Positions 123 through 7,949 of a DNA stretch of 64,000 nucleotides are shown here, one piece after another. The DNA is from Demequina silvatica (GTDB taxonomy: Bacteria > Actinomycetota > Actinomycetes > Actinomycetales > Demequinaceae): assembly GCF_000971215.1 (NCBI RefSeq), contig NZ_BBMA01000007.1, forward strand, positions 62,001 through 126,000, in the 5' to 3' direction. Made by a program: the position numbers and the translations under genes. Every line of letters begins with the position of its first letter. Position 1 is the stretch's first letter. The notes beneath the pieces are model-generated. The model did no database searches and was not told the DNA's origin. It was given only the letters and a program-made list of their open reading frames with translations.

Positions 123-211
123 GAGCCAGCCTCCGACAGCCTCCCCGTGATCCCCAGGCGCGCACGGTCGCGGACGGCGCGCGTCGCGCAGGGGCCGTCG
201 GCGGCGCCCAC

Positions 212-217
212 TAGCGT
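212..217 (+). promoter_or_regulatory. -10 box for the site-2 protease gene
   Basis: TAGCGT, 7 nt before the ATG at 225. It supports that ATG over an in-frame upstream start at 147. Confidence 0.5.
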
Positions 218-224
218 GGTCCCC

Positions 225-1340
225 ATGAGCCAGCCCCCGACCCGCGCCCGCAAGCCTCGCGGCATCACGCTCGGGCGCGTCCTGGGCGCGCGCATCGTCC
301 TCATGCCGTCGACCATCGTGATGGCGCTCATCCTCGCGGTGTTCTACGCGGCGGACGAGGACGGCTTCAGCCGCCAGGGGTTCTCTATCGGTCTCGCTGT
401 CGCGCTGCTGCTGTTCGTGTCGGTGTTCCTCCACGAGCTCGCCCACACCGCCGCCGCGCGGGGCTTCAAGCGCGAGGTCGACGAGATCGTGCTGACGTTC
501 TTCGGCGGGCACACGCAGTTCCGCAGCGCGGACCCGCGCCCGCTCGAGATCGGCGTGATCGCCGCCGCGGGCCCGCTCACCAACGCCGTGATCGGCGCCC
601 TCGCGCTGGCCGCGTCCGGCGCGCTCGACGGCATGGCCGGCCGGATCGTGCTGTACGCGGGCGCGCTCAACCTCATCCTTGCGGGCTTCAACGCGCTGCC
701 CGGCTCGCCGCTCGACGGCGGGCGCGTGGTCAACGCGATCGTGTGGGCGGTCTCGGGCGACCGGTGGAAGGGCCACCGGTGGGCGGCACAGGGCGGGCGC
801 ATCGTCGCGATCGGCGTGATCGTGGTCGCGGTGGGGCTGCCGATCCTGCGCGGCGGCCAGGTCGACTTCGTCGCCGCGATCTGGGCGATGTTCCTCTTCT
901 CCGTCATCTGGCCCGCTGCGAGCGCCGAGCTGCGCGCGGCGACCGTGCTGGGCAGGCGCGAGAACGTCACCGCGCTGTCGCTCGCCGCCCCCGCGGTGGG
1001 CATCCCCTACGACGCCACGGTCGCGCAGGCGCGCGAGATCGCCGCCCGCGCGCAGGCCCGCGAGGTGGTGGTGCTCGCCGCGGACGGCCAGGCGGCCGGC
1101 CACTTCCCGGTCGCGCTCACCGAGGCCGTGCCCGAGGAGGCGCGCGCCCAGACGCGGCTCATGTCCGTCACCATGCCGCTGGTGCGCGGCGCCCAGATCC
1201 CCGCGACGGCCACGGGGGAGCGCCTGGTCGAGGCGGTGGTGCCGTGGTTCGGCCGCACCGACGTCCTCGTGGTGGTCGACGAGCACGGCATCCCCGTCGG
1301 GATCGCGAAGCTCGACGAGATCAGGGACGCGCTGAGCTGA
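225..1340 (+). CDS. Site-2 protease family intramembrane zinc metalloprotease (M50)
   Basis: A 371-residue polytopic membrane protein. The zinc motif HELAH lies at residues 70-74 inside a hydrophobic helix. The second active-site segment NALPGSPLDGG (about 156-166) supplies the metal-binding Asp164. The C-terminal ~110 residues look like a degenerate CBS-pair domain (ends VLVVVDEHGIPVGIAKLDEI), as in the Rip3/SpoIVFB-like branch. Such enzymes cut membrane-spanning substrates, for example anti-sigma factors; the substrate here is unknown. The start was chosen from the -10 box spacing. It diverges from the RecB-like gene and precedes trmI with its own promoter. Confidence 0.85.
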   Translation: MSQPPTRARKPRGITLGRVLGARIVLMPSTIVMALILAVFYAADEDGFSRQGFSIGLAVALLLFVSVFLHELAHTAAARGFKREVDEIVLTFFGGHTQFRSADPRPLEIGVIAAAGPLTNAVIGALALAASGALDGMAGRIVLYAGALNLILAGFNALPGSPLDGGRVVNAIVWAVSGDRWKGHRWAAQGGRIVAIGVIVVAVGLPILRGGQVDFVAAIWAMFLFSVIWPAASAELRAATVLGRRENVTALSLAAPAVGIPYDATVAQAREIAARAQAREVVVLAADGQAAGHFPVALTEAVPEEARAQTRLMSVTMPLVRGAQIPATATGERLVEAVVPWFGRTDVLVVVDEHGIPVGIAKLDEIRDALS

Positions 1341-1423: not shown

Positions 1424-2431
1424 ATGACCCAGACCTCCGAGCCCGTCGGCGCGTCCGAGCGCAGGGGCCCGCTCCGCGCCGGCGACCGCGTCCAGCTGAC
1501 CGACGCCAAGGGCCGCCACCACACGATCATCCTCACGCCGGGCAAGCAGTTCCACACGCACCGCGGCCTGTTCCACCACGACGACGTCATCGGGCAGCCC
1601 GAGGGCACCGTCGTGACCAACACCGCGGGCTTCGACTACCTGGTGCTGCGCCCGCTGCTGAGCGACTTCGTGCTGTCCATGCCGCGCGGAGCCGCCGTGG
1701 TCTATCCCAAGGACGCCGGGCAGATCGTCCAGATGGCGGACATCTACCCGGGCGCCCGCGTGGTCGAGGCGGGAGTCGGCTCCGGCGCTCTCACGATGTC
1801 GCTGCTGCGCGCGGTCGGAGACGCCGGGCGGCTGGTGAGCATCGAGCGTCGCGAGGACTTCGCGGACATCGCGCGCGCCAACGTCGAGTCCCACTTCGGC
1901 GGCCCGCACCCGGCGTGGCGCCTCGAGATCGGCGATTTCGCGGACCGCGTGGGCGACGCGTTCGAGGCCGGCACCGTCGACCGCATCATCCTCGACATGC
2001 TCGCCCCGTGGGAGAACATCGACGCGGCGGCCGATGCGCTCGCCCCGGGCGGCGTGTTCCTCGCCTACGTCGCGACCACCACGCAGCTGTCCCGCCTCGC
2101 GGAGGACCTGCGCGAGCACGGCGGATACACGGAGCCCCGCGCGTGGGAGTCGATGGTGCGCACGTGGCACCTCGAGGGCCTCGCGGTGCGCCCCGACCAC
2201 CGCATGATCGGCCACACCGGCTTCCTGCTCACCGCACGCCGCATGGCGCCCGGCGTCGAGCCGCCGCGACGCACCCGCCGTCCGGCGAAGGGCTCGTACC
2301 CGACGACCGACGGCGAGTGGAGCCCCGAGGACCTGGGCGAGCGTCCCGTGAGCGAGAAGAAGATCCGCAAGGTGCGCCGCGACGCGACAGCGGCCGCGCC
2401 CTCGGCTGACACCGCCGCAGGGGAGGAGTGA
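1424..2431 (+). CDS. trmI: tRNA (adenine-58-N1)-methyltransferase TrmI
   Basis: A 335-residue class I SAM-dependent methyltransferase. The N-terminal beta domain (about 1-90) is followed by the Rossmann fold with SAM loop VVEAGVGSGALT (about 113-124). It methylates N1 of A58 in the T-loop of tRNA. The sequence closely follows the actinobacterial TrmI pattern, including KQFHTHRGLFHHDDVIG and PRGAAVVYPKDAGQI. About 60 extra residues at the C-terminus are charged and low in complexity. Its TGA overlaps the ATG of the next gene (TGATG), and trmI directly upstream of the proteasomal ATPase is a conserved actinobacterial order. Confidence 0.93.
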   Translation: MTQTSEPVGASERRGPLRAGDRVQLTDAKGRHHTIILTPGKQFHTHRGLFHHDDVIGQPEGTVVTNTAGFDYLVLRPLLSDFVLSMPRGAAVVYPKDAGQIVQMADIYPGARVVEAGVGSGALTMSLLRAVGDAGRLVSIERREDFADIARANVESHFGGPHPAWRLEIGDFADRVGDAFEAGTVDRIILDMLAPWENIDAAADALAPGGVFLAYVATTTQLSRLAEDLREHGGYTEPRAWESMVRTWHLEGLAVRPDHRMIGHTGFLLTARRMAPGVEPPRRTRRPAKGSYPTTDGEWSPEDLGERPVSEKKIRKVRRDATAAAPSADTAAGEE

Positions 2432-3840
2432 TGGTGGCCGAGGCTCAGGACCTGATCGCGCGCCTCGAGCGCCAGAACAACGAGCTCCAGCGGCTCCTCA
2501 CGCTCGCGCGCGACCAGATCGGCGAGATGCGCGAGAAGCTCGCCGAGGCGTCGCAGCCGCCGCAGACGTTCGCGACGTTCGTCGAGTGGTCGGGACGCAA
2601 CGCGGACGTGGTCTCCAGCGGCCGCCGCCTGCGCGTCGCCGTGCTGCCCACGCTCGAGGCGGACCTGAGCCCCGGCGACGAGGTGCTGCTCAACGCCATG
2701 TCCGTGGTGGTCGACGTCGCCAGGCCGGACCGCACCGGCCAGGCCGCGATCGTCCGCGAGGTCGTCGACGAGGACCGCCTGCTGGTGGTCTCGCGCGGCG
2801 AGGACGAGCGCGTGGTGACCCTCGTCGGTGGCGACGCCGCACGCCGCGTCCACGAGGGCGACACCGTGATCATCGACCCGCGCACCGGCTTCGCCACGGA
2901 GAAGGTCGAGCGCACCGGCGTCGAGGCGCTGCTCCTCGAGGAGGTGCCCGACATCGACTACTCGTCGATCGGCGGCCTCACCCCGCAGATCGAGCGCATC
3001 CGCGACGCGATCGAACTGCCCCTGGTCCACCCCGAGCTCTACCGTGAACACGCGCTGCGTCCCCCGCGCGGCCTGCTGCTCTACGGTCCGCCCGGCTGCG
3101 GCAAGACCCTCATCGCGAAGGCCGTCGCGCACTCGCTCGCGGAGGCGGTGGGCGCGGACCGCTCCTACTTCCTCTCCGTCAAAGGCCCCGAGCTGCTCAA
3201 CAAGTACGTGGGCGAGACCGAGCGCTACATCCGCACCATCTTCGAGCGCGCCCGCGCCAAGGCGCACTCCGGCGCCCCCGTGGTGGTGTTCTTCGACGAG
3301 ATGGACGCGCTGTTCCGCGCCCGCGGCTCCGGCGTGAGCTCCGACATGGAGACCACGATCGTCCCGCAGCTGCTTACGGAGCTCGACGGCGTCGAGGCGC
3401 TGGGCAACGTCATCGTGATCGGTGCGTCGAACCGCGAGGACATGATCGACCCCGCGATCCTGCGCCCCGGCCGCCTCGACGTGAAGATCGAGATCTCGCG
3501 CCCCAGCCCCGAGGCCACGGCGGACATCTTCGGCAAGTACCTCACGGCGGACCTGCCGCTCGCGCAGGCGGAGCTCGACGCGCACGGCGGCGACCGCGCC
3601 GCCACCGCGCGGGCGCTCATCGACGCGGGCGTGGGCCGCATCTTCGCCCACGCGGACGCGTCGCGCCACGTGTCGGGCGCCGTGGTCCGCAACGTGGTCG
3701 ACCGCGCCAAGACCTCCGCCATCAAGGGCGTGGTCGCCGGGCACGCGAAGGGCCTCACGCGCGCCCACCTCGAGCACGCAGCCGACCAGGAGCTCGCCGA
3801 GGCGCGCGCCGTCGCCGCGGGCACGCTCGCGGGGGAGTGA
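2431..3840 (+). CDS. arc: Pup-dependent AAA+ ATPase (Mpa/ARC), C-terminally short
   Basis: A hexameric AAA+ unfoldase that recognises Pup-tagged proteins. An N-terminal coiled coil (about residues 4-45, rich in L/E/R heptads) is the Pup-docking segment; an OB-fold region follows to about 165. The AAA module shows Walker A YGPPGCGKT, the pore-loop segment LLNKYVGE, Walker B VVVFFDEMD and the GASNREDMIDPAILRPGRLD block. At 469 residues it is much shorter than mycobacterial Mpa (609). It ends LAEARAVAAGTLAGE, without the late beta-strand segment and without the terminal GQYL that docks Mpa onto the 20S proteasome. GTG 2434 is an alternative start. A GGGGAGGAG ribosome site lies just upstream. 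Confidence 0.92.
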   Translation: MVAEAQDLIARLERQNNELQRLLTLARDQIGEMREKLAEASQPPQTFATFVEWSGRNADVVSSGRRLRVAVLPTLEADLSPGDEVLLNAMSVVVDVARPDRTGQAAIVREVVDEDRLLVVSRGEDERVVTLVGGDAARRVHEGDTVIIDPRTGFATEKVERTGVEALLLEEVPDIDYSSIGGLTPQIERIRDAIELPLVHPELYREHALRPPRGLLLYGPPGCGKTLIAKAVAHSLAEAVGADRSYFLSVKGPELLNKYVGETERYIRTIFERARAKAHSGAPVVVFFDEMDALFRARGSGVSSDMETTIVPQLLTELDGVEALGNVIVIGASNREDMIDPAILRPGRLDVKIEISRPSPEATADIFGKYLTADLPLAQAELDAHGGDRAATARALIDAGVGRIFAHADASRHVSGAVVRNVVDRAKTSAIKGVVAGHAKGLTRAHLEHAADQELAEARAVAAGTLAGE

Positions 3841-3841
3841 C

Positions 3842-5356
3842 GTGCGGGTCGTCGGCATCGAGACCGAGTACGGCATCGTCGATCCCGCCGAGCCGCGCGC
3901 CAACCCCATCCTGCTGTCCTCGCGCCTGGTGACGGCGTGCCGGGCGTGGGCGGGGGAGCGCACCAGCCGGTGGGACTACGGCGGCGAGGACCCGCTGCAG
4001 GACCAGCGCGGCTTCCGCCGCTCGCGCCTGGGCGCCTCCGCGGACCTCCTGACGGATTCCGCCGAGTACGATGCGGCGGCCGGGCGGGTGACCCTGCGTC
4101 GCCGCCGCGGGTCGTGGGAGGACCCTGCCCACCTCAACGCGGTGCTCGCCAACGGCGCCCGCTTCTACGTGGACCACGCCCACCCCGAGTACAGCGGTCC
4201 CGAGGTCACGGGCGCCCGCGACGCGGTGATCTGGGACCGGGCGGGCGACGCGATCGCGCTCGCCGCAGCCACGCGGTACGCGGAGGACGAGGACGGCGAG
4301 GTCCACCTCTACAAGAACAACGTCGACGGCAAGGGCGCCTCGTACGGCACCCACGAGAACTTCCTGGTCGCCCGCGCGGTGGCGTTCGACGACCTCGCGC
4401 GCCGCCTCACGCCCCATCTGGTGACCCGGCAGGTCTTCACGGGCGCCGGGCGCGTGGGGCTCGGCCAGTTCGGCGAGGAGCCGGGCTTCCAGCTGTCGCA
4501 GCGCGCGGACTACATGGAGGCCGAGGTGGGCCTCGAGACCACCCTGCGCCGGCCCATCGTCAACACCCGCGACGAGCCGCACGCCACCCGCGACAAGTAC
4601 CGCCGCCTGCACGTCATCATCGGCGACGCCAACCTCTTCGACGTCGCGACCTACCTCAAGATCGGGACCACCTCGCTGGTGCTCGCCGCCATCGAGGCGC
4701 AGGACGAGCGCCTCGACGAGCTCGAGCTCGCGCATCCCGTGGAGGCCGTGCAGGAGGTATCGCGCGATGTCTCGCTCCGCCGCCGCATCGTCCTGGCCTC
4801 CGGCGAGGCCGCCACGGCCCTCGAGCTCCAGCGCGCCCTCCTCGAGATCTGCCGCACCTACGCCGCCGACGCCGGCGACGCCGCCGTGCTCGCCCGCTGG
4901 GAGGGCGTGCTCGAGCGGCTCGGCGCGGACCTCTTCAGCGCCGCGCGCGAGGTCGAGTGGGTCGCCAAGCTCCAGCTGCTGGGCAGGTTGCGGTCGCGGC
5001 ACGTCTCGGAGGATCACCCCGACGGCCTGCCGTGGGACGATGCGCGGCTCGCCGCTGCCGACCTCCAATGGAGCCGTCTGGGGGACGGGTGGGCGACGCG
5101 GCTCGCGCAGGCGGGCCAGGTGGAGCGGCTCGCGACCGAGGACGAGGTCGCGGCGGCCGCCATCACGGCGCCCCAGGACACCCGTGCGCGCCTGCGGGGA
5201 GGCATCGTCTCCGCGCGGCCCGACCTGGTCGACGCGGCCGGCTGGTCCACCGTGGTGCTCGACCGCGAGACCGACCACGGGCACCTCGAGGTGGTGCATC
5301 TCGACGAGCCCGGCGCGGCGCGTCACCCCCTCCTCGACGCCCTGATCGACGGATAG
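3842..5356 (+). CDS. dop: Pup deamidase/depupylase Dop
   Basis: A 504-residue member of the carboxylate-amine/glutamine-synthetase-like fold. It converts the C-terminal Gln of Pup to Glu and removes Pup from substrates. The N-terminal VVGIETEYGI is the Mg-ATP binding strand. The segment YVDHAHPEYS contains the nucleophilic Asp (residue 111 here, Asp95 in mycobacteria). An insertion at about 45-95, after WDYGGEDPL, corresponds to the Dop-specific loop absent from PafA. GTG start 1 nt after the ATPase stop. Its TAG stop is also the first half of the pup -10 box. Pup in this window ends in Gln, so Dop is needed to activate it. Confidence 0.95.
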   Translation: MRVVGIETEYGIVDPAEPRANPILLSSRLVTACRAWAGERTSRWDYGGEDPLQDQRGFRRSRLGASADLLTDSAEYDAAAGRVTLRRRRGSWEDPAHLNAVLANGARFYVDHAHPEYSGPEVTGARDAVIWDRAGDAIALAAATRYAEDEDGEVHLYKNNVDGKGASYGTHENFLVARAVAFDDLARRLTPHLVTRQVFTGAGRVGLGQFGEEPGFQLSQRADYMEAEVGLETTLRRPIVNTRDEPHATRDKYRRLHVIIGDANLFDVATYLKIGTTSLVLAAIEAQDERLDELELAHPVEAVQEVSRDVSLRRRIVLASGEAATALELQRALLEICRTYAADAGDAAVLARWEGVLERLGADLFSAAREVEWVAKLQLLGRLRSRHVSEDHPDGLPWDDARLAAADLQWSRLGDGWATRLAQAGQVERLATEDEVAAAAITAPQDTRARLRGGIVSARPDLVDAAGWSTVVLDRETDHGHLEVVHLDEPGAARHPLLDALIDG

Positions 5357-5359
5357 ACT
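5354..5359 (+). promoter_or_regulatory. -10 box for pup, overlapping the dop stop codon
   Basis: TAGACT, 7 nt before the pup ATG (5367). The first three bases are the dop stop codon TAG. This gives pup (and pafA) a promoter independent of dop. Confidence 0.6.
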
Positions 5360-5366
5360 CGCGAGC

Positions 5367-5555
5367 ATGGCCCAGCTCAACGCGCAAGGACAGCCCTACG
5401 AGGACGACGCCCCGGAGCCGGAGGCGCCCGCGCCCGCCGCGGCGGCGACCGCCTCGAGCGACGCGCTCGACGACCTTCTCGCGGAGATCGACGGCTCGCT
5501 CCAGGTCAACGCCGAGCAGTTCGTGCGGTCCTTCGTCCAGAAGGGCGGCCAGTAG
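5367..5555 (+). CDS. pup: Prokaryotic ubiquitin-like protein Pup
   Basis: A 62-residue, largely disordered protein. The N-terminal half is Ala/Pro/Glu-rich and the C-terminal half carries the conserved helix DALDDLLAEIDGSLQVNAEQF followed by VRSFVQKGGQ. The terminal Gly-Gly-Gln is the immature form: Dop deamidates Gln to Glu, then PafA joins it to substrate lysines. It lies 10 nt after dop and only 20 nt before pafA, a space that holds prcB and prcA in proteasome-bearing actinobacteria. Confidence 0.97.
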   Translation: MAQLNAQGQPYEDDAPEPEAPAPAAAATASSDALDDLLAEIDGSLQVNAEQFVRSFVQKGGQ

Positions 5556-5575
5556 CCTCCCGCGGGCCACGCACC

Positions 5576-6985
5576 ATGCTCTCCACCGACATCCCGCCGC
5601 CGCTCGACGTCGACCCCGCCCGCCGCATCTTCGGGCTCGAGACCGAGTTCGGCCTGCACCTCGACACCGGCGCCGCGCGTCCCGTCACGCCCGAGGAGGT
5701 CGCCGGCCACCTGTTCCACTCCGTGGTGCAGTGGGGCCGATCCTCCAACGTGTTCCTGCCCAACGCGTCCCGCCTGTACATCGACGTGGGCGCGCACCCC
5801 GAGTACGCGACCGCCGAGTGCGACACCCTCACGGACCTCATCGCGCTCGACAAGGCCGGCGAGCGGATCGTCCACGACCTCGTGGCCGGGGGAGAGCAGC
5901 GCCTGCGCGACGCCGGCGTGGACGGCACCATCCACCTCTACAAGAACAACACCGACTCCGCGGGCAACAGCTACGGCTGCCACGAGAACTACCTGGTGCG
6001 CCGCCGTGCGGACTTCAAGGCGTTCGCATCCGCGCTGCTGCCGTTCCTGGTGACCAGGCAGATCGTCACGGGCGCGGGCACCATCACACGCACCCCGTCG
6101 GGCGCCCACTACAGCTTCTCGCCGCGCGCGGACCACATGTGGGAGGGGCTGAGCTCCGCCACCACCCGGTCGCGGCCCATGATCAACACGCGCGACGAGC
6201 CCCACGCGAACGCGGAGCTCTACCGCCGCATGCACGTGATCGTGGGCGACTCGACCATGGCGGAGCCCACCACGCTGCTCAAGATGGGCGCCACCGACCT
6301 GGTGCTGCGCCTCATGGAGGCGCGCGTGGTGCTGCCCGAGCTCACGCTCGCGCGGGAGATGCAGGCCATCCGCGACGTCGCGCACGACCTCACGGGCGCC
6401 GCGACCGTCGAGCTCACCGACGGCCGCAGGCTCACCGCGGTCGAGGTGCAGCAGACGTACATCGACCTGGTGCGCTCGCACCTGGGCGGCGTGATCGCCC
6501 CCACGGCGGAGGTCGACCGGATCCTCGACCTGTGGCAGCGCGGCGTCGACGCGGTGCGCACGCAGGACTTCTCCGGCGTCGAGACGGAGCTCGACTGGGC
6601 GATCAAGCACCGCCTGGTGATGCGCTACCGCGAGCGGCTGGGCTGCGACCTCGACGACGCGCGGCTGGCGCGGCTCGAGCTCGCGTTCCACGACGTCTCT
6701 CCCGAGCGCGGCGTGTTCGCCAAGCTGCAGGAGCAGGGGCTGGCCCGGCGCATCGTCTCCGACGCGGACATCGAGCGCGCCATGACCACCGCGCCGCAGA
6801 CCACGCGGGCCCGCCTGCGAGGCGAGTTCGTCACCAAGGCGCTCGCCTCGGGGCGTGACTTCACGGTGGACTGGGTGCACCTGAAGATCGCAGGCTCCTC
6901 CGGCACGACGGTCCTGCTCAAGGACCCGTTCCGCACCGAGGACGCGCGTGTCGACGCGCTCATCGAGGCCCTCGACCCGGCCTGA
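5576..6985 (+). CDS. pafA: Pup--protein ligase PafA
   Basis: A 469-residue Dop paralogue that forms the isopeptide bond between Pup-Glu and substrate lysines using ATP. It shows IFGLETEFGL (ATP site strand), QWGRSSNVFLPN, and LYIDVGAHPEYATAE with Asp70 as the catalytic Asp. It lacks the Dop loop. The N-terminal extension of about 17 residues (MLSTDIPPPLDVDPARR) is longer than in mycobacteria (452 aa). No good ribosome site precedes the ATG, so translation may depend on the short upstream pup mRNA. It completes the tagging system; no 20S core subunit genes are nearby. Confidence 0.95.
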   Translation: MLSTDIPPPLDVDPARRIFGLETEFGLHLDTGAARPVTPEEVAGHLFHSVVQWGRSSNVFLPNASRLYIDVGAHPEYATAECDTLTDLIALDKAGERIVHDLVAGGEQRLRDAGVDGTIHLYKNNTDSAGNSYGCHENYLVRRRADFKAFASALLPFLVTRQIVTGAGTITRTPSGAHYSFSPRADHMWEGLSSATTRSRPMINTRDEPHANAELYRRMHVIVGDSTMAEPTTLLKMGATDLVLRLMEARVVLPELTLAREMQAIRDVAHDLTGAATVELTDGRRLTAVEVQQTYIDLVRSHLGGVIAPTAEVDRILDLWQRGVDAVRTQDFSGVETELDWAIKHRLVMRYRERLGCDLDDARLARLELAFHDVSPERGVFAKLQEQGLARRIVSDADIERAMTTAPQTTRARLRGEFVTKALASGRDFTVDWVHLKIAGSSGTTVLLKDPFRTEDARVDALIEALDPA

Positions 6986-7025: not shown

Positions 7026-7949
7026 ATGCGTCGTCTCGTCGTGCTCGCGCTCGCCCTGGTGCCCCTGGCACTCGGGGCGTGCACAGCCGCGCCGTCCGAG
7101 ACCGACCCGAGCGTGTCCCCGTCCGGCGACATCTCCGACATCGTGATCGGCGGCTCCGACACGCTCGCACCGTCGCTCGAGTTCACGCCCGGCCTGGACT
7201 ACGCGGAGGAGCAGTCGACCGTGGTGTGGGACGGCGACGGCGAGTACCTTCAGGACGGCGAGCCGCTGCTGCTCGACATCTACGGCGCCTCGCTCGACGA
7301 CGGCACCACGCTGATCAACACCTACGACGGGCTGCCGCGGTCCTTCCTGCTCGCCCCCGAGGTGGTGGGCGAGGAGCTGTACGACCGCCTGCTCGACGTG
7401 CGGGTGGGCGCGCGCCTGCTGGTGGTGGCGCCGCCTGGCTTCGAGTCCGAGGCCGAGGCGCCCATCGCGATGGTGATCGACGTCCTGCCCGACCACGCCG
7501 TGGGCACCGAGGTCGAGGCGAGCCCCGACCTGCCCGAGGTGACCCGCCACAAGACCACGGGCGAGCCGTCCGTGACCATCCCGAAGCAGTCGCCCCCCAC
7601 CGACCTCCAGGTCGCGACCCTCATCCAGGGCTCCGGCCCGCAGGTGAAGGAGGGGTCCTTCCTCACCGTCAACTACACCGCCTGGTACTGGTCGGACGGC
7701 AAGGGCGCGGACGGCAAGTGGCGCAAGGGCGACGTGCTCGACTCGTCGTGGCCCGTCGAGGCGGCCCCCTTCGAGCTGCAGATCGGGTCCGGCCAGGTGA
7801 TCAGGGGCCTCGACGAGGGCCTGCTCGACCAGACGGCCGGATCGCAGGTCGAGCTCGTGGTGCCCGCGAGCTACGGCTACGCCGACAAGGGCACGCTCGT
7901 GTTCGTCGTCGACATCCTCGACGTGTTCAACCCGGAAGGAGACGCCTGA
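7026..7949 (+). CDS. FKBP-type peptidyl-prolyl isomerase, lipoprotein
   Basis: A 307-residue protein with a signal peptide ending in lipobox LALGAC; Cys19 would be lipidated, so it acts outside the membrane. The C-terminal ~110 residues form an FKBP domain: [35 protein letters not shown], and [15 protein letters not shown] are the strand and active-site segments. The central ~150 residues have no family I can name with confidence, but resemble a second, degenerate FKBP repeat ([14 protein letters not shown]...). It is a likely folding factor for exported proteins. Its TGA overlaps the hisF ATG. Confidence 0.88.

Follow-up and report, generated by a model that had tools for sequence, protein, structure and literature searches.

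Pupylation without the 20S proteasome genes prcB and prcA (prcBA) is kept by a subset of actinobacteria, among them the corynebacteria and, in a figure legend, M. luteus, and the occurrence of Bpa is described as following that of the 20S core, with P. acnes an exception in one paper (PMC8223512, PMC3511204, PMC4254994, PMC12288473; these and all further papers are cited for excerpts of their text). Here we describe a Pup locus in a stretch of 64,000 nucleotides from Demequina silvatica (contig NZ_BBMA01000007.1; hereafter the window, whose numbering is used throughout), in a genome that retains the ATPase ARC, Dop, Pup and PafA and has no recognizable 20S subunit. Judged from its sequence, the unusual trait of this system is a motor without the beta-grasp region. 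No literature on a Demequina proteasome was found, the papers retrieved being unrelated to judge by their titles.

The four genes lie on the forward strand in the order given in the preliminary description of this DNA, and both that order and the short distance between pup and pafA are borne out by the open reading frames (ORFs) and their family matches. The ARC/Mpa AAA ATPase (2428..3840, 470 residues; TIGR03689, 613 bits, cut-off 505) is followed by dop, the Pup deamidase/depupylase (3842..5356, 504 residues; TIGR03688, 557 bits, cut-off 492), by pup (5367..5555, 62 residues; PF05639, 57 bits, and TIGR03687 over its cut-off) and by pafA, the Pup ligase (5576..6985, 469 residues; TIGR03686, 662 bits, cut-off 551). 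Each product exceeds the curated cut-off of its own NCBIfam model, all ORFs are intact, and the same four stay open in each of the 12 loci read. The start of the locus had been placed at 2431, which is indeed the first ATG of ARC, but the ORF opens with a GTG at 2428. Among named relatives, in a list that may omit the window's own record, PafA is 94% identical to that of Demequina rhizosphaerae, 89% to that of D. subtropica and 72-80% to three further Demequina records, and its best matches outside the genus reach at most 59%.

Between the pup stop and the pafA start lie 20 nucleotides (5556..5575, forward strand), the site of prcB and prcA in proteasome-bearing relatives. The earlier claim that this gap marks the position of the two genes holds, as the distance is about 1.5 kb in the proteasome-bearing genomes G062, G072 and G086. 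With the pup stop and a conserved PafA codon as end points, the distance is 2-121 nucleotides in 34 of the 36 proteasome-less loci besides that of the window; gaps of 137 (L124) and 167 nucleotides (L121) were artefacts of start-codon choice. The value for G094 was set aside, because another ORF had been taken in a fetched stretch that lacks the full pafA. In the remaining two proteasome-less loci, G034 and G080 of family f17 (families are designated f1, f3 and so on) the slot is filled by a gene for a protein with DACNG, DACNH and DAC domains, the last a DisA-type nucleotide-binding domain (L148:3023-4780, reverse strand; L151:6120-8201, forward strand).

The preliminary description had proposed that the 20S genes are gone and had named intact prcBA elsewhere in the genome as the result that would speak against this. 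Neither gene was found: PF00227, the 20S subunit family, has no match in the genome of the window (G000; 2.92 Mb in 17 contigs, 99.97% complete) and none in the 47 genomes of the Demequina family (f1), four of which are single-contig assemblies, and the reading that the proteasome is absent is right. The same search was positive in 73 of 119 and 204 of 396 genomes in two samples of the order. Pup itself is present in 47/47 genomes of the family and in 110/119 of the order, so that a whole family has kept a ubiquitin-like tag and has no proteasome. ARC exceeds its family cut-off in the same 110 genomes; thus no sampled Pup-bearing genome has dropped the motor. A supposed absence of ARC from some proteasome-less genomes (blank for L148, L150, L151 and L154) was rejected, the gene lying outside the fetched stretch.

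Pup without a 20S match occurs in 37 of the 119 order genomes, distributed over f1 (9/9), f3 (8/8), f11 (7/8), f17 (4/7), f4 (6/8, the remaining two having neither), f6 (2/8) and f20 (1/7). The last of these rests on a draft, G098, in 210 contigs and 90% complete, with a pup-pafA distance of 121 nucleotides. Both states, 20S present and 20S absent, are therefore found among the Pup-bearing genomes of three families, or four counting this draft; on the assumption of an ancestral 20S core, this implies at least three or four losses, a count based on the family labels assigned by the classification tool. Bpa (PF10759) was matched neither in G000 nor in the eight further members of the genus in the order sample, and the 58 order genomes in which it was matched all fall within the 73 that bear a proteasome. 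In the other 15 of the 73, some of which are incomplete or have diverged strongly, no Bpa match was obtained. Bpa is thus not a strict companion of the 20S core, which runs against the published claim that it occurs in every 20S-bearing actinobacterium.

The tagging enzymes appear to be functional. PafA carries D70 within LYIDVGAHPEYATAEC, which aligns with the Asp of the motif LYLDVGSHPEYATAE in the solved ligase chain 4b0t, and Dop carries D111 within YVDHAHPEY, which aligns with the Asp of LYVDHAHPEYSAPE in the solved Dop chain; we take both motif residues to be catalytic. Pup ends in FVQKGGQ, and over its C-terminal 30 to 40 residues it can be aligned to solved Pup chains. Since this C-terminus is a Gln, the Dop deamidase is required, and three features of the pathway (the GGQ end of Pup, a ligase with its active-site Asp, a deamidase) are present. 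The alignments to solved chains agree with what had been read from the locus, namely a Pup ending in Gln and an Asp kept in both Dop and PafA, and they support a tagging pathway that looks functional in the absence of a 20S core, like that of corynebacteria.

ARC of the window consists of a long N-terminal helix, OB domains and an AAA domain; it ends in AAGTLAGE and lacks both the GQYL docking motif and the beta-grasp region. A GxYL tail was found in none of the 37 proteasome-less ARC proteins and in 24 of 39 proteasome-bearing ones, the latter being a non-random choice from the 73 that takes in the entire set of 15 lacking a Bpa match and all eight of family f7. ATPases of proteasome-less species have been described as lacking the C-terminal motif (PMC3511204). 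In an alignment of 33 ARC sequences, the hairpin segment (LEVTYANGDKEVMYFKDFN in Mpa) is missing from 12/12 Demequina proteins, which have nothing beyond the last AAA helix. The second proteasome-less lineage with such a motor is G071 (L153, family f6), whose ARC is likewise without the beta-grasp hairpin and the C-terminal strands. The M. tuberculosis beta-grasp hairpin is in contact with the 20S core, and mutants of the contact residues degrade less (PMC9599533); a loss of the beta-grasp is not mentioned in the excerpts of that paper or of PMC8142254, which treat this element. The phmmer alignment of ARC to the Mpa chain 7px9 (609 residues) covers Mpa 63-558. A structural model of moderate confidence (mean predicted local distance difference test score 75, predicted template modelling score 0.47) likewise suggests a long N-terminal helix, OB strands, an AAA fold and, at the end, a helix; beyond residue 353 it contains no strand of at least three residues. 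The unfoldase core is conserved: Walker A (GPPGCGKT, residues 220-227, at 3085..3108 on the forward strand) except C224, Walker B D290-E291, R346-P-G-R349 and pore-loop residues K259, V261 and G262 are invariant in the 33 sequences.

The genes are also under purifying selection. Against D. rhizosphaerae, the ratio of nonsynonymous to synonymous substitution rates (dN/dS) is 0.07 for ARC, 0.19 for Dop, 0.04 for Pup and 0.12 for PafA, with 0.13 for the neighbouring trmI; in comparison with two more distant members of the genus the values are 0.12 and 0.24 for ARC, 0.25 and 0.26 for Dop, 0.19 and 0.28 for PafA, and 0.23 and 0.29 for trmI.

Observed gene content, active-site motifs, missing 20S and Bpa matches, lost docking elements and purifying selection together form the basis on which we consider it probable that this is a proteasome-less Pup system, in which ARC unfolds or disassembles Pup-tagged proteins and Dop recycles Pup. 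Such unfolding or disassembly, followed by recycling of the tag, would be the likeliest role. With the 20S core, the GQYL tail and the beta-grasp hairpin all missing, tagged proteins cannot be passed to a proteasome in this organism. The enzymatic steps, the release in place of degradation and the substrates are inferred. From characterised homologues, Dop would deamidate Pup-Gln to Pup-Glu and PafA would link Pup-Glu to substrate lysines; an ARC hexamer would then bind Pup through its coiled coil and thread the tagged protein with ATP. The polypeptide would presumably be released unfolded, or the complex dismantled, instead of being degraded, since the 20S core and both known ARC contacts, the GQYL tail and the beta-grasp hairpin, are lost; Dop would finally strip Pup for reuse. 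The preliminary description had left the choice between remodelling and another protease, and of these remodelling is favoured, no evidence having been found for a hand-over to another protease.

Several observations weigh against this reading. Loss of the hairpin is not needed for the proteasome-less state, because the hairpin segment is retained, alongside variable C-terminal strands, in the 11 other proteasome-less ARC proteins that were aligned. On the two more distant genus pairs dN/dS of Pup reaches 0.34 and 0.42, although Pup is short and its values are noisy. ClpP1P2 is present and could degrade released chains. Finally, there is a slight chance that a gene was missed in an assembly of 17 contigs, though the absence of the 20S family from all 47 genomes makes this very unlikely.

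The rival that survives best is an iron-release system, in which ARC would dismantle pupylated iron-storage shells, here Dps, as has been proposed for the ferritin of C. glutamicum; we regard this as unlikely, though worth serious consideration. A link to tagged ferritin had been suggested for this locus, together with a search of the genome for ferritin and Dps, and the outcome is divided. The sole PF00210 match of G000 is a Dps (G000:C15:310193-310600, L159), assigned by motif and by PDB matches, the best of which is 8ff9, a 'probable DNA-binding stress protein'; a 24-mer ferritin was not found by the PF00210 search and motif classing of this genome. Dps is present in all nine genus members of the order sample with lysine K43 invariant, and PMC7064749 states that both Dps and Ftn are pupylated in C. 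glutamicum, making Dps a possible target. However, the 37 proteasome-less Pup-bearing genomes of the order divide into 10 with ferritin or bacterioferritin, 22 with Dps only and five without any PF00210 match, the loci being classed by motif or by eye (L210, L215, L216 and L219 as Dps by a wider motif, L233 as bacterioferritin by eye). In the Demequina family 40 of the 47 genomes have a PF00210 match. Sixteen of these were read; ferritin occurs in G264 and G331 and Dps in 15, G331 having both (L268 and L269 are ferritin and the other six of L268-L275 Dps, classed by eye from the matched stretches). Of the seven family genomes lacking one, two are near-complete, G284 in a single contig and G384 in two, each at 99%, and both nevertheless carry Pup, so that ferritin is not the general reason for its retention. 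The pupylomes of characterised species are moreover broad, which weighs against a role in iron storage alone. In C. glutamicum itself, deletions of dps and ftn, single or double, are reported to have made no difference to growth, whereas a pup deletion grew worse (PMC7064749); this too argues for a role beyond the two storage proteins. Disassembly of iron stores may be one use of Pup and Dps one candidate target, though not the sole one across the family; the C. glutamicum ferritin story cannot explain in general why Pup is kept.

It is improbable that ARC instead delivers what has been tagged to a different compartmental peptidase, be it ClpP1P2 or some other. Two adjacent ClpP genes are present (G000:C15:329878-331106), and the unfoldase core of ARC looks to be in working order. 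However, ARC terminates in a helix with no added domain, and its last residues differ within the genus (AAGTLAGE, ASSSLREG, AARELGDR, AARSLGG), which is unlike a new docking motif; nor is there an HslV, PF00227 being unmatched in G000. PF05362 (Lon_C) gave three matches of 35-45 bits (cut-off 21.1). A decaying remnant without function is more improbable still. ARC scores lower in the nine genus members (600-623 bits) than in proteasome-bearing genomes (708-858 bits, leaving out G008, whose match is split in two with a larger piece of 549 bits), as does Pup to some extent (53-64 bits in the family, 57-94 in proteasome-bearing genomes), but the four ORFs are open throughout the 12 loci read, Pup persists throughout the family, and dN/dS is 0.04-0.19 on the closest pair, the higher Pup value on a distant pair notwithstanding. 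That a 20S proteasome exists and was missed, through a gap between the 17 contigs or through very diverged subunits, is hardly credible and was rejected, given 0 matches in G000 and 0/47 in the family with its four single-contig assemblies, no Bpa match and a docking tail that is gone.

Relatives that still possess the 20S genes suggest that the coupling between Pup and the proteasome can loosen before the proteasome is lost. All eight sampled genomes of family f7 (G006, G025, G042, G058, G072, G086, G100 and G114) have prcBA, and the tails of their ARC proteins (L157, L158, L174-L179) read SDLV, SDLL, PDLL or SSLI, without Tyr, while Bpa ends in GNYL in 8/8 (L247-L254). According to PMC6017811, replacing the Q of GQYL has no effect, so the GNYL tail should still dock; in f7 the 20S core thus looks to be served by Bpa, with Pup and ARC uncoupled from it. 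The six proteasome-bearing genomes sampled from f20 (ARC L162, L164, L165, L166, L168 and L171; prcBA L238-L243) all combine a PrcB with the TTI active-site motif, ARC tails that lack Tyr and the absence of any Bpa match. G062 of family f11 (L155) is similar: it has prcBA, its PrcB carries the active-site motif, its ARC does not end in GxYL, and Bpa was not matched. Hairpin and strands of the beta-grasp are recognizable in L155 of G062 and in L157 and L158 of f7, and a C-terminal strand in the f20 tails; docking may proceed through the hairpin and strands in the former and through the C-terminal strand in f20. We tentatively propose, as a possibility short of an even chance, that Pup and ARC have repeatedly turned into a stand-alone remodelling machine, that the docking interface breaks before the 20S genes go, and that Demequina represents the end state, in which all of the known interface has been deleted and the role extends beyond iron storage alone. 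The Demequina ARC would in any case be a natural motor stripped of its known 20S contacts, and could be used to study Pup-directed unfolding without degradation.

Other observations concern the wider sample and the surroundings of the locus. In family f19 (G021, G038, G054, G069, G083, G097 and G111) neither Pup nor 20S was matched in any of the seven sampled genomes, and what the ARC profile does match in them scores far short of its cut-off. The best PF00227 E-values of the f11 genomes G062, G174 and G385 are 1.8e-27, 1.7e-25 and 1.9e-27, weaker than in most proteasome-bearing genomes of the order, which suggests faster-evolving 20S subunits. No literature was found on Pup together with proteasome genes in Microbacteriaceae. 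Within the window, ARC is preceded on the same strand by a trmI-like tRNA methyltransferase (1424..2431; Pfam TrmI-like_N, GCD14) and pafA is followed by an FKBP-type prolyl isomerase (7026..7949, forward strand; Pfam FKBP_C), both outside the Pup system; an M50-type peptidase lies further upstream (147-1340, forward strand; ORF and family searches of the window).

Compared with known systems, the Demequina locus resembles that of Mycobacterium and Streptomyces in Dop, Pup, PafA, the helix-OB-AAA part of the ATPase and the gene order, and differs from it in having no prcB, prcA or bpa match, no GQYL tail and no beta-grasp region. Its motor recalls archaeal PAN, whose architecture is OB plus AAA without a beta-grasp, and PRK03992 does match ARC with 234 bits. 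However, this is below the family cut-off of 500 bits; ARC also sits in a Pup locus and has no HbYX tail, unlike PAN. Like the system of C. glutamicum, that of Demequina has pup directly before pafA, no 20S genes and an ATPase without the C-terminal motif (PMC3511204, PMC8223512, PMC12288473). It differs in that the target in C. glutamicum is the ferritin Ftn (PMC8223512, PMC12288473, PMC7064749), whereas only Dps was found in G000, and its ARC is without the beta-grasp region, that of C. glutamicum being compared by the C-terminal motif alone. The defining features of the Corynebacterium type, to which a 24-mer ferritin belongs only as a target, are nonetheless present, with Pup, PafA, Dop and ARC kept, prcBA gone from between pup and pafA, and no docking motif. 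Gene content and the tail of ARC together confirm the likeness to corynebacteria that had been drawn for this locus, and Demequina adds a further case to the proteasome-less Pup systems already known.

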